From Deltaproteobacteria bacterium (lineage in GTDB: Bacteria > Desulfobacterota > Desulfobacteria > Desulfobacterales > SpSt-501), in the NCBI GenBank assembly GCA_016219005.1, contig JACRCN010000023.1, forward strand, positions 1-64,000: a stretch of DNA of 64,000 nt, written 5' to 3'. The notes under the pieces are model-generated. The model saw only the letters and a program-made list of their open reading frames with translations, did not search any database and had not been told where the DNA came from. The position numbers and the translations under genes are program-made. This document shows, one piece after another, positions 30,922-36,691 of this stretch. The number at the start of each line of letters is the position of its first letter. Position 1 is the stretch's first letter.

Positions 30922-33441
30922 TTATTGCGCTTTCTGAAAGGTCAGCTTGAAATTCGCCCCCTGACCCGGCGCGCTTTCCACTTCGATGCGGCCCTCGTAA
31001 TCCCTGACGATCCCGTAGCTGATGCTCGTGCCCAGGCCGGTCCCCTTGCCGGTTGCCTTGGTGGTGAAAAAAGGTTCGAAAAGCTTGCTTCTGACATGCT
31101 CCGGCATGCCGATGCCGGTGTCGCTCACCTCGGCGATCACATGGCCGTTGTCGGTGTAGGAGCGGATCCGCAGCCGCCGGGTCCTGTCCGCGATCTCGGG
31201 GTGCTCGCGCTTTTCGTCGATGGCATCGATGGCGTTGCTCACCAGGTTCACGAACACCTGCTCCAGGCGGTTGTGATCGGCCATGATCGGCGGGATGTCG
31301 GGGTCGAGATCCAGTTCGACCTCGATCTCGTGGGCTTTCAGTTGGTGGCCCAGGATCTTGAACACGTCTCGGATGGGGCTGTTGATGTCGACCCGGCTGC
31401 GGACGATTTCCGCCTGCCGGGAGAAATTCCGGACGTGCGTGATCACTGACGATGCGCGGCCCACATGGGCGATGATGTCCTCGGCCACCCTTTTCATTTC
31501 GGCGTCCTCGATGGGCCGGCCGCGCCTGAGCATTTTCAGTATGTAGTCGGCCGAGACCTGGATCACGCTCAGGGGTTGGTTGATCTCGTGAGCCATGCCG
31601 GCCGCCATCACCCCCAGAGTGGTCATTTTACCGGCCTGGATCAGTTGAGCTTCCTTCTCCACGGTCGCGGTGATGTCGGTGGTGGTCGCAATCAGGACAT
31701 CGCGGCCGCCGTACTCGGCGCGGGTGACGTTGAGGTTCACAAAAAAGGGCTGCCGCCCCTTCTTGTATTGACGCTGCTTCGGAAAAAAGATGGAGTGCCC
31801 CTTTTCAAGCCGCTGAAACCCCTGGCGGACGTCCGCTTCGCCCTCTTCCCCCAGCGCGAAAAAAGACAGTTTCACCAGCTCCGGCTTCGTATAGCCGTAG
31901 CAGTCCTGGGCGGTCTGGTTGGTGTCGAGGATCTGGAAGGTGTGGGGGCTGATGATGAAAATCGGGTTGGGATCGTTGTTGAAGACAGAGCGGTATTTTT
32001 CCTCCGACTTGATCACCTGCTCCTGGAGCATGGCGTTTTCGATCGCCAGCGCGATGCGGTTGCCGATCAGTTCCAGCACGTTGCGCAGCCGCGGGGAGAA
32101 CTGCTGAGGCGCGCGGTTTGCGATGCGGATCACTCCGAAGGTCTGCTTTTCCTTGGAACGAATGGGGATGTAGGCCAGCGACTGCAGCCGGTCCACTTCG
32201 ATCAGCCGGATTTCATCGATGCAGCCTGAGGGCAGCTCCTCAAAAGTGGTCAAGCGGTGCTGCTTGCCTGCATGGCCGACGGCGCTGTGCTGGCTGGCGA
32301 TGGGGAAAATGCGGCAGGCCTTTTCAGATGTGCCGCAGCTGAACTTTATATGATAGCAGTCGTCATCGGCCAGGAGAAAGATGCAGATCCCATCGGCGGT
32401 GACCAGCTTTTGAAGCTCGGCCATGGCCATGCGGATGCGTCCCTCCAGATCCGCCGGTGCGCTCAGGGCCGAGTAGACCGAAACCATGGCGCTCAACTCT
32501 GCCGTGTGGCGTTCGCGCTCCGCCTCCGCGCGTTTGTCCTCCGTTTTGTCCCAGAGGGTTTCGATCGCTCCGCTGATGCGGCCGTCGGGAGATTTGATGG
32601 GGGCCGCGGTGAACCAGCACCACCTGCCCTCGTCTCCCAGGCTGGGAAAGAACCCCTCTGCTTCGTAAGCGTCCTCGATCAGCGCGGATTTACGCCACTG
32701 GGCCCCGTACAGCCGTCGGATTTCGCTCTCATCCGGTTGGCTGAGGATGACGTCTGCCATCGACGGCCGCGGGCTGTCGTAGAAGGGGGCCCACTGGCGG
32801 TTGGTGCCGATCTGCTGGTTCGCAGAAAGACCCGTCAGCTTCTCGATGGCTCGGTTCCAATGGGTGATGATGTGATCCTGGTTGATGACAAAGGTCGGGA
32901 TGGTGCTGCCCTGAATGATCTGATACAGGGTGCGCTCCTTGCCGACGAGTTCTATTTCGATTTCGCGCGAGCGCCGGTTTCTCCTTTCGATGATGGCGGT
33001 GAAGCGGTCCATCACCCGGCTCAGGAATTCGCGTGCGTCGTACGGGCCGTCGTTAAGCTGCTCCAGTTCCCGGTAGGATTCGATCTTGACCTTTTCGGAC
33101 ATCAGAAAATCCCGGATGGCCCGCGCCTCGAAATGGTCGATCAATCTCACGGCGGCCGGCTTGCTGTCCCGGATGGTTTCGATGATGGCATGGCTGTCGG
33201 TCAGTTCCAGAAGGGTTTCCAGGTCCTGCAGTTTGTAGAATTCCGTGTAATCGGCGAAGGTGGGAATGCCCAGGGACCGGGCATGCCGGACCCCTACGGC
33301 GTTCTGGTTGATGTCGGCGACACCCAGGATCTCCGGCCGATGCCCGGAGAAGATGTCGTCGGACAGAAATTCCAGAAACGTCCTGCAGGCCCGGCCGCCT
33401 CCGACGATGGCAATGGTGGAACCCAGGATCTTGCGGATCAC
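30922..33441 (-). CDS. PAS/GAF sensor histidine kinase with N-terminal nucleotide-binding-like domain
   Basis: 839 aa, GTG start, cytoplasmic. Residues ~8-130 look like a Rossmann fold (STIAIVGGGRACRTFLEFL, then GVADINQNAVGVRHARSLGI), unusual in front of a kinase. A PAS domain follows (~170-305), then a GAF (~320-475, MVSVYSALSAPADLEGRIRM) and a second PAS (~485-605). HisKA has H618 in AGMAHEINQPLS. The HATPase has NAIDAIDEK, DTGIGMP and GKGTGLGTSISYG. It probably senses a cytoplasmic redox or nucleotide cue and signals to the receiver proteins encoded downstream. Confidence 0.9.
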   Translation of the reverse strand: MIRKILGSTIAIVGGGRACRTFLEFLSDDIFSGHRPEILGVADINQNAVGVRHARSLGIPTFADYTEFYKLQDLETLLELTDSHAIIETIRDSKPAAVRLIDHFEARAIRDFLMSEKVKIESYRELEQLNDGPYDAREFLSRVMDRFTAIIERRNRRSREIEIELVGKERTLYQIIQGSTIPTFVINQDHIITHWNRAIEKLTGLSANQQIGTNRQWAPFYDSPRPSMADVILSQPDESEIRRLYGAQWRKSALIEDAYEAEGFFPSLGDEGRWCWFTAAPIKSPDGRISGAIETLWDKTEDKRAEAERERHTAELSAMVSVYSALSAPADLEGRIRMAMAELQKLVTADGICIFLLADDDCYHIKFSCGTSEKACRIFPIASQHSAVGHAGKQHRLTTFEELPSGCIDEIRLIEVDRLQSLAYIPIRSKEKQTFGVIRIANRAPQQFSPRLRNVLELIGNRIALAIENAMLQEQVIKSEEKYRSVFNNDPNPIFIISPHTFQILDTNQTAQDCYGYTKPELVKLSFFALGEEGEADVRQGFQRLEKGHSIFFPKQRQYKKGRQPFFVNLNVTRAEYGGRDVLIATTTDITATVEKEAQLIQAGKMTTLGVMAAGMAHEINQPLSVIQVSADYILKMLRRGRPIEDAEMKRVAEDIIAHVGRASSVITHVRNFSRQAEIVRSRVDINSPIRDVFKILGHQLKAHEIEVELDLDPDIPPIMADHNRLEQVFVNLVSNAIDAIDEKREHPEIADRTRRLRIRSYTDNGHVIAEVSDTGIGMPEHVRSKLFEPFFTTKATGKGTGLGTSISYGIVRDYEGRIEVESAPGQGANFKLTFQKAQ

Positions 33442-35065: not shown

Positions 35066-35510
35066 TGGCGATGGATGCCCCCCCAACGCAATGTCATGGT
35101 GCGGCCGTGGAACGGAATCCCACCCGCTGTCGAAGCTGCGTGGGTGCCTGCACATTCCAGAGCTGCAGGAACGTGTCGAGAAACTGCGTGACGGGTTGTC
35201 ATCACGGCGCCTGGTCCTTCGCGTTTCAGGCGGCGTCGGGCAGGGCACCGATGAACCGGCAGGCGCACGCGTGTTGCCGAGGATTGCCGCAGTAGCATAG
35301 CAAATCCAGCATGGTTTTCAAGGTCAATCTTCCCCATGTCTCCGATCGCGTTTTCATCAGGATGGGCGGTGGATGCACCAGTGCAGGCAGCCCTGCGAAA
35401 AGAATTGACGGGTAATGGCGGACGTACTATCGTTTTCTCAAACCGCTCGCGGCTTATGGTAATCTTCGAAGGGGTTCATTCCAACCCGGCACTCAAGGAG
35501 GGCTGATAGC
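35066..35510. other. Divergent intergenic region between antiporter and selenoprotein genes
   Basis: No gene is credible in this 445-bp region once the antiporter start is set at 35065. The right half holds the candidate promoter of the selenoprotein operon (35405-35433). The left half is GC-rich and reads as an open extension of the antiporter frame, but lacks start and ribosome-binding signals. Confidence 0.5.
35405..35433 (+). promoter_or_regulatory. Candidate sigma-70 promoter of the selenoprotein-peroxiredoxin operon
   Basis: TTGACG (35405-35410) and TATCGT (35428-35433) are separated by 17 bases, about 78 bp before the start codon. AAGGAGG lies 8 bases before the ATG at 35511. Confidence 0.5.
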
Positions 35511-36086
35511 ATGTGCACCCGACGGCGATGGCGGGGAATGGCGCTTTTGGCTGTCTTGCTGGCAGCCGGAGCCGCGTGGGCCGGCGACCAGCCTCCGGCG
35601 GTGGGTGCCACGCTTCCTGATTTCACGCTGGCCGCACCGAAGGATCCGGAAGATCAGAAGTACTTCGGGCTGGCAGAACCGATAAATTTTAAAATCGGCG
35701 ACATCCAGGCCGTCGTCGTCATCATCGAGATCTTCAACATGTACTGACCGCACTGCCAGAAGGAGGCTCCTTCTATCAACGAGGCCTACCAAAAGATCGA
35801 GAGTGACCCCAAGCTGAAAGGGAAAGTCAAAATGATCGGGATCGGCGCGGGCAACTCGGCCTTCGAGGTCGGTTTTTTCAAGAAAATCTACAAGGTGCCG
35901 TTTCCGCTCTTCCCGGACCCGGAGTTCAGGATTCACAAGCTGGTGGGGGAGGTTCGAACGCCTTATTTTATTTGCGTGAAAAACTCGAAGGGCGCCGCCC
36001 CCAAGGTGTACTATTCCAAGCTAGGCGGTGCCAGGGACGCGGATGAGCTTCTGATAAAGCTGCTGGCCAATTCGGGGCTGCAGTGA
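35511..36086 (+). CDS. Exported thioredoxin-fold selenoprotein (Sec encoded by TGA at 35745)
   Basis: 191 aa if the in-frame TGA at 35745-35747 is read as selenocysteine. Before it, 78 codons encode a signal peptide ([20 protein letters not shown], cut after AWA) and a thioredoxin-like start ([13 protein letters not shown], then [11 protein letters not shown]). After it the frame continues as [14 protein letters not shown] with 113 more codons. This gives the redox motif Sec79-Pro-His-Cys82, exactly where thiol oxidoreductases have CxxC. The cis-Pro element (VRTPYFICV) is in the second part. A SECIS-like hairpin follows the TGA at the right distance. Automated calling would split this into two false genes (35511-35747 and 35832-36086). 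Its stop is 11 bp before a peroxiredoxin gene. Confidence 0.9.
35745..35774 (+). promoter_or_regulatory. Selenocysteine codon and bacterial SECIS-like hairpin
   Basis: After the TGA (35745-35747), AGAAGGA (35758-35764) and TCCTTCT (35768-35774) form a perfect 7-bp stem around a GGC loop. The loop starts 18 bases after the TGA and begins with G. Both fit the published rules for bacterial SECIS elements, which bind SelB within the coding region. No selA/B/C/D gene is in the window. Confidence 0.85.
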
Positions 36087-36097
36087 GGAGAACCGAA

Positions 36098-36691
36098 ATG
36101 CAAACGGTCGTGGTTGGTTTTGTCGTGGCGATTGCATTGCTGGCAGCCCCCACCTTGGCGGGGGCGCAGACGTTGAAGGATATGAACTACAACCCCGGGG
36201 TCCTCAAGCCGATCGACAGCACCCTCAAGGTCAAGGTGGGGCAGAAGGCGCCGGATTTCACGCTGCCCTCGATTTCCGGCGAAAAGATCCGCCTGAGCCA
36301 GTACCGGGGGAAGAAGAACATCGTGATTTCCTTCATTCCGGCGGCTTTTACACCAGTGTGCTCGGATCAGTGGCCCGGCTACAACATGGCGCTTAAACTC
36401 TTTGAAGACCATGACGCCATTCTGCTCGGCATCGCCGTGGACAACATCCCCGCGCTTTACGCCTGGACCGGCCAGATGGGCGAACTGTGGTTTCCGGTGC
36501 TCTCGGATTTCTGGCCCCATGGCGCCGTGGCCAAGAAATTCGGTGTGCTGCGGTCGGACGGGGTCTCCGAACGCGCCCTTTTCTTCATCGACCAGAAGGG
36601 CGTGATCCGGGACATCCTGGTCTCGGACATCAACAAACGCCCCGACTTGGAATACATTGCCACGGCCCTGGACAAGCTCGATCCGCAATGA
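36098..36691 (+). CDS. Exported one-Cys peroxiredoxin (AhpC/TSA family)
   Basis: 197 aa from ATG 36098 (GAGGAG seven bases upstream). Signal peptide MQTVVVGFVVAIALLAAPTL, cut near AGA-Q. The redoxin domain starts VKVGQKAPDFTLPSISG; the peroxidatic site is T85-P-V-C88 in FTPVCSDQW. C88 is the only Cys in the whole protein, so there is no resolving Cys and an outside thiol or selenol must reduce it. It should destroy hydrogen or organic peroxides in the periplasm. The selenoprotein encoded 11 bp upstream is the obvious candidate reductant. Confidence 0.93.
   Translation: MQTVVVGFVVAIALLAAPTLAGAQTLKDMNYNPGVLKPIDSTLKVKVGQKAPDFTLPSISGEKIRLSQYRGKKNIVISFIPAAFTPVCSDQWPGYNMALKLFEDHDAILLGIAVDNIPALYAWTGQMGELWFPVLSDFWPHGAVAKKFGVLRSDGVSERALFFIDQKGVIRDILVSDINKRPDLEYIATALDKLDPQ

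Follow-up and report, generated by a model that had tools for sequence, protein, structure and literature searches.

An in-frame TGA codon within a single gene

The window, that is, the whole stretch of 64,000 nucleotides analysed here, belongs to a draft assembly of 106 contigs (G000) from an anaerobic deltaproteobacterium. The features at the locus all lie on its forward strand. A coding sequence at 35511-36086 specifies a thioredoxin-fold protein of 191 residues, predicted to be exported, in which residue 79 would be selenocysteine (Sec). Its ATG is preceded at a distance of 8 nt by the Shine-Dalgarno-like AAGGAGGG (35495-35502), which reads as a strong ribosome-binding site, and the gene ends at the TGA 36084-36086. 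The first 24 residues (35511-35582) form a predicted signal peptide, residues 11-22 being helical in the structure model. The frame contains a single in-frame TGA, codon 79 (35745-35747), which falls precisely on the first Cys position of a CPHC active site, hence U79-P80-H81-C82 (35745-35756). Further along, Thr150-Pro151 (35958-35963) is probably the cis-Pro of the fold. A SECIS-like hairpin follows the TGA at 35758-35774, and a peroxiredoxin gene lies directly downstream (36098-36691).

The initial annotation, made from the letters of the DNA, had noted that the frame from 35511 meets TGA at 35745 at the position of a redox Cys, that it stays open for 113 codons thereafter and that standard gene calling would give a 78-residue protein and a headless one. 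Each of these points is borne out: homologues carry Cys in the same column, 112 sense codons and the stop follow TGA79, and without recoding the region appears as two ORFs, of 78 and of 84 residues. Searched separately against Pfam, the first piece has no match at E 0.001, while the second remains below threshold for AhpC-TSA (20.5 bits, cut-off 26). The joined protein exceeds the cut-off of that family (PF00578; 33.7 versus 26 bits, from a query, P0001, with one spurious last residue derived from the stop codon), with UPHC as a UxxC site.

Searches for relatives covered 146 related genomes and found matches in 66 of them. Among the 85 matches listed, 18 contain an in-frame stop, which is TGA each time and never TAA or TAG. 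From 36 loci extracted first and others added later, 40 distinct members bearing the motif were inspected, L057, which has the protein of G005, being excluded from the counts as its protein is identical to L028. Codon 79 is TGA in 15 of them, including that of the window, and TGC or TGT in the remaining 25, so that the Cys homologues anticipated at position 79 do exist. G014 and G114:C50 each contribute one TGA among the matches listed and lie outside the 40 inspected. A broader search, over 395 genomes of the phylum, gave a match in 175. Three candidates were rejected after inspection. G466 had resembled a TAA variant, but its TAA falls at the distal end of the match (index 193) and the site is TGC. 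The TGA of G408 is likewise elsewhere (index 178), and G449 carries TGC at the site, its tblastn match being free of TGA. A tblastn search of plasmids for the window protein gave nothing.

In an alignment of 17 rows in which Sec was written as Cys (A1), the invariant positions include M77, Y78, C/U79, P80, C82, Q83, A86, P87, N90, T150 and P151. In the aligned homologues the residues after the TGA form part of one protein with those before it, contrary to the case, considered at the outset, of a downstream region foreign to them. Comparison with two Sec forms of the same genus gives dN/dS values of about 0.16 (0.134/0.82) and about 0.21 (0.158/0.74) after the TGA, and upstream of it, too, pN falls far short of pS. 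Purifying selection acts on the parts before and after the codon.

If TGA79 were a true stop, the gene would be a pseudogene or an assembly error, as the two short ORFs given by standard calling would have it. We reject this reading, whose probability we regard as minimal, since 14 other family members share the TGA, the hairpin described below accompanies it and selection after the codon is purifying. Positions 35511-36086 almost certainly constitute one intact gene, not two.

A SECIS-like hairpin distinguishes Sec from Cys forms

In the region where a bacterial SECIS element had been looked for (35740-35800), a SECIS-like hairpin is indeed present, 17 nt from the UGA (35758-35774; AGAAGGA-GGC-TCCTTCT, a 7-bp stem with the GGC loop at 35765-35767). 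GGAGGCTCC with a GGC loop 17 nt past the UGA is found in all 15 Sec forms. The apex GAGGCTCC occurs in 15/15 TGA forms versus 1/14 Cys forms with the same [KR]EAP peptide, the one being L034 (Fisher p 2e-7, uncorrected for relatedness). Among 20,000 random synonymous recodings of the window's own peptide, all seven pairs form in 57. These counts leave out L066, L067 and L068, in which no [CU]P[HFYW]C motif was found, as well as the remote Sec forms L100 and L103.

Considered alone, the folding energy of the window hairpin is not below that of shuffled sequences (z -0.4 to 1.7), so that the element is convincing only by the comparison of Sec and Cys forms. In the Sec alignment 93.3% of cells pair, a value reached by none of 500 shuffles and lost when the partners are slid, and the covariation score is likewise reached by no shuffle. 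The 20 Cys forms pair in 52.1% of cells, no better than shuffles (the five distant Cys forms L058-L062 were omitted from alignment A3). Pair 17-27 links the second base of a Lys/Arg codon with the third base of a Pro codon and is always paired, as GC in 10 Sec forms and AU in five; pair 15-29 also displays compensatory change (GC in 14, AU in one). Two pairs are changed on both sides, which is not outstanding, as 32/500 shuffles reach that number, and the two further pair types are reached by 500/500. A C-A mismatch in the stem of five of the 15 Sec forms leaves an upper stem of 4 bp.

According to excerpts of a recent catalogue, bacterial SECIS elements have a loop of 3-9 nt, an upper stem of 4-16 bp, a G in the first two loop positions, a distance of 16-37 nt from the UGA and an MFE of at most -7.5 (PMC13188914). 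The window hairpin lies within these limits with its 7 bp, GGC loop, 17-nt distance and MFE of -9.9 over 45 nt. Taken loosely, the limits are passed by 15/15 Sec forms and 6/25 Cys forms; if the bare hairpin must in addition reach -5 kcal/mol, 10/15 Sec forms and 0/25 Cys forms pass. Rfam returned no selenium element around UGA79, only one match at chance level.

Fold class and relation to known selenoproteins

The structure model of the Sec protein (pLDDT 91.7) displays a thioredoxin fold. Its best fold matches are ResA chains (TM-score by target length 0.74-0.85) and its best PDB profile match is 3c71, an engineered ResA with a DsbA-like CPHC site. The protein belongs to the ResA/TlpA-like class of the thioredoxin fold. 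The fold proposed in the initial annotation is supported by the model and the ResA matches, and the cis-Pro proposed with it by the invariance of T150-P151 in 17/17 alignment rows, from which the role is deduced. With ResA, TlpA and DsbE the protein shares the fold and the exported thioredoxin type, but identity is about 20%, scores are far below NCBIfam cut-offs, and CPHC or UPHC is natural in this family. The best NCBIfam match is ResA (PRK03147), at 32.7 bits versus a cut-off of 170; up to E 0.1 only ResA, StoA, TlpA and PDI-domain models match, each short of its cut-off, and the joined protein matches none of the selenoprotein models of NCBIfam. Although the Cys homologues share CPHC with DsbA, no Pfam DSBA match was obtained at E 0.001, and DsbA chains match the protein profile weakly (E about 6e-4).

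The class as such is already known. Excerpts of the 2026 catalogue of prokaryotic selenoproteins describe a Prx-like thiol:disulfide oxidoreductase with PF00578 and UxxC or UxxU (WP_010940744.1; PMC13188914), and Prx-like UxxC selenoproteins had been reported earlier from several deltaproteobacteria (excerpts of PMC1794560, PMC1088965). By description alone, the window protein fits this published class, with PF00578 over the cut-off and a UxxC site rather than the TxxU of peroxiredoxins; by the same kind of comparison it differs in its UP[HYF]C motif, its export signal and its pairing with a 1-Cys peroxiredoxin. Other thioredoxin-like Sec families appear in the same excerpts, namely UGC TlpA, HUIPC, SaoT, DsbA-like and DsbG-like (PMC13188914). 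These families and the WAxxUGC proteins of NCBIfam are likewise thioredoxin-fold selenoproteins, but their motifs, as far as described there, differ from UPHC. Our literature searches found no paper combining 'UPHC' with selenocysteine, nor any that we recognised as describing a selenoprotein-peroxiredoxin operon.

More remote relatives have TGA at the equivalent site within other motifs: YUPTC in L100 (G276:C91), YUPVC in L103 (G226:C100) and YUASC in L068 (G095:C298). A paralogue of the window protein, about 40% identical, with YCPQC and other gene neighbours, is present in the same genome (G000:C12:21933-22412, L067) and in G004:C143 (L066).

A constant peroxiredoxin neighbour

The gene at 36098-36691 encodes a peroxiredoxin with a signal-peptide-like start and a single Cys (PAAFTPVCSDQW); PF00578 scores 111.8 bits when it is read from 36083, where an alternative GTG start overlaps the stop of the selenoprotein gene. 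In 40 of the 41 loci with the motif (39/40 once the duplicate is removed), a peroxiredoxin lies directly downstream on the same strand, the spacing ranging from -28 to 191 nt, i.e. from a 28-nt overlap to 191 nt apart, by aligned start. The exception is the Cys-form locus L038. In all 40 neighbour peroxiredoxins the Cys of PAA[FW]TPVCSDQW is present; it is the only Cys common to all, and none of them contains a TGA. A further exported thioredoxin-like frame with WC[GM]PC occurs downstream in four of the eight loci searched for this pattern (L030, L031, L032 and L036); that of L031 has ResA- and thioredoxin-type matches below cut-offs.

With only one conserved Cys, the peroxiredoxin would depend on an external reductant, and from gene order we infer that the Sec protein reduces its neighbour. 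It might instead serve another client, be it as a cytochrome c maturation reductase of the ResA/DsbE type or by acting more generally on periplasmic disulfides. ResA comes nearest both in fold and by profile and is also the best NCBIfam subfamily, at 32.7 of the 170 bits set as cut-off. A role in cytochrome c maturation is possible; against it, the constant neighbour in 40/41 loci is a peroxiredoxin. We hold this other assignment to be a tentative one.

Selenocysteine machinery and a second UGA-decoding locus

The initial annotation had pointed to selA, selB, selC and selD as genes to be expected in the genome. The first, second and fourth are present: selA (609 bits), two selB, the ordinary one at 378 bits, and two selD, each with an in-frame TGA. 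A canonical tRNA-Sec was found neither in the G000 draft nor in the Sec-form genome G005 of the same genus (85% complete); one of the tRNA-Sec searches scored 150 of 945 first-look candidates. Among the 46 genomes searched, selA is present in 44, with Sec and Cys forms alike, and in all 15 genomes with the Sec form; it therefore does not set the Sec forms apart.

Nine relatives possess a canonical tRNA-Sec with G73 (G001, G002, G003, G004, G022, G029, G144, G034 and G071), 98 nt long by ARAGORN. In G001 the gene is at the very end of a contig. In G004 it lies at C140:15126-15219, and a 61-nt partial copy of its 3' part is found about 16 kb downstream (31539-31599), an arrangement resembling the two ends left by an integrated element. 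Such a contig-end position or partial duplication can break short-read assemblies. For the gene flanking the canonical tRNA-Sec in G004 and G001, no match was obtained in G000 and no more than a fragment in G005. This is consistent with a missing stretch, but also with a deletion; in G003, G034 and G071 a different gene stands beside the tRNA. Given the nine relatives, the contig end and the 61-nt duplicate, the missing canonical selC is probably an assembly gap. The single contig of G071 carries the Sec form, selA, one selB and a canonical tRNA-Sec, so that for the family ordinary Sec decoding is sufficient.

The only UCA tRNA found in G000 is of another kind. At C100:12719-12808 lies a tRNA called tRNA-Sec by both ARAGORN and Rfam, with a UCA anticodon, an A1:U72 pair and U73 before CCA (discriminator bases, U73 versus G73, being our own reading of G000 and G004). 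It measures 92 nt with CCA by ARAGORN and differs strongly from the canonical tRNA-Sec. We rejected it as an ordinary tRNA-Sec because of U73, its Cys identity elements and the adjoining second selB and cysteinyl-tRNA synthetase (CysRS) genes, and assign it to the selC* tRNA-Cys kind. The second SelB is 32% identical to the first, and the CysRS matches only positions 2-384 of 466, so it apparently does not include the C-terminal anticodon-binding part. The whole run (C100:12719-19884, L018) comprises the selC*-like tRNA, the second selB, the truncated CysRS, a double-cubane-cluster reductase, an activase and a selD with in-frame TGA.

With its three genes in order, this locus corresponds to the selC*/selB*/cysS* arrangement described for Desulfobacterales in excerpts of PMC7609411, PMC9437257 and PMC11415595, but it is separate from 35511-36086. 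As described in part of these sources, the system gives Cys at Sec UGA codons (PMC9437257, PMC11415595), may serve under selenium scarcity and coexists with normal SelC and SelB (PMC9437257). The reviews, in the excerpts available, differ on the star CysRS, one mentioning in vivo charging (PMC7609411) and the other stating that characterization is missing (PMC11415595).

The selC*-kind tRNA and a second selB occur together in G004, G022 and G029 too; in G022 and G029, frames that resemble the reductase and the activase follow without the CysRS, and cysS is on other contigs. G002 has a tRNA of selC* kind by its ARAGORN layout (C17:172454-172541, L122; UCA at position 32, 92 nt, near a contig end) with only one selB found, and a canonical tRNA-Sec as well. 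~190-bit matches of the selB search in frames of ~400 residues are presumably EF-Tu and were not taken as a second selB.

These observations bring forward the reading in which UGA79 is decoded in this organism mainly as Cys, by the selC* tRNA-Cys(UCA), CysRS* and SelB*, Sec being unused or confined to relatives. It draws on the ordered star genes of C100 (a UCA tRNA with U73 and A1:U72, the second selB and the truncated CysRS), on the arrangement described for this order in the excerpts cited above, on the G73 held essential for tRNA-Sec (PMC5330540, in part) and on the lack of a canonical tRNA-Sec match in G000 or G005. However, selA, the ordinary selB and two selD that themselves contain in-frame TGA are retained; G004, of the same genus, has both tRNAs, canonical and selC*; and the star genes are said, in an excerpt of PMC9437257, to coexist with normal SelC and SelB. 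Moreover, among 14 Sec-form genomes a second selB exceeds the cut-off only in G000 and G004, and G139 (72% complete) shows none. We judge mainly-Cys decoding unlikely.

That Sec is by far the simplest reading, as initially proposed, holds for the family. For this organism Sec is likely, though not certain for every molecule made, since the canonical tRNA-Sec was not found in its draft.

Exchanges between Sec and Cys

In a tree of 70 proteins, 17 of them Sec forms with L100 and L103 included, the Sec/Cys label requires at least six changes, four of them forced by well supported branches. Several branches are long, the bootstrap is not fully settled and the outer part is unreliable, so that only the starred inner groups were used. 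One supported Cys group of three (L033, L034, L038) is nested in a supported group of 14 whose other members are all Sec forms. The family has switched between Sec and Cys at least several times.

Two members of the nested group have features of their own. L034 (G144:C341, 1705-1740) is a TGC form that retains the SECIS-like hairpin apex in a genome with selA; the apex kept beside TGC and the selA gene fit a recent change from Sec to Cys, of which the hairpin would probably be a relic. L038, a Cys form from G001 in the same genus as the window, groups away from its genus mates and has no peroxiredoxin neighbour, which suggests transfer between species.

Proposed function and implications

Taken together, we favour, with a probability of about 0.85, a single exported UPHC selenoprotein in which UGA79 is read as Sec through SelA, SelB, SelD and the hairpin, with the neighbouring 1-Cys peroxiredoxin as its likeliest client. 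What the computation shows is a frame with a conserved TGA, homologues with Cys, a SECIS by comparison, the fold class and the conserved gene pair; Sec on the actual polypeptide, export and the client are what we infer. In the proposed mechanism, UGA79 would be recoded by SelA/SelB/SelD under the direction of the hairpin 17 nt downstream. The selenolate of Sec79 would then attack a disulfide or a sulfenic acid, most likely that of the peroxiredoxin encoded directly downstream, and Cys82 would resolve the intermediate. When selenium is short, selC*/SelB*/CysRS* may insert Cys at UGA79 and so give the Cys form that occurs naturally elsewhere in the family.

This last step leads to a more speculative possibility, which we put forward with reserve: UGA79 could be a programmed ambiguous codon, read as Sec via the ordinary SelB and as Cys via selC*/SelB*/CysRS*, the outcome being set by selenium supply.

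A gene split in two by standard calling is thus restored as one, and with it a conserved pair, an exported Sec/Cys thioredoxin-fold protein ahead of a single-Cys peroxiredoxin. The Sec/Cys mosaic of the family, including the nested Cys form that keeps its hairpin, offers a snapshot of the replacement of Sec by Cys. In G000 the gene coexists with a dedicated UGA-to-Cys locus, and the same tRNA kind and second selB are found in G004 of the same genus; this coexistence makes the gene a concrete candidate for studies of the purpose of that system. If ambiguous decoding proves true, one gene would give two redox variants of an exported peroxiredoxin reductase, and the family, natural in both forms, would be a ready test bed.
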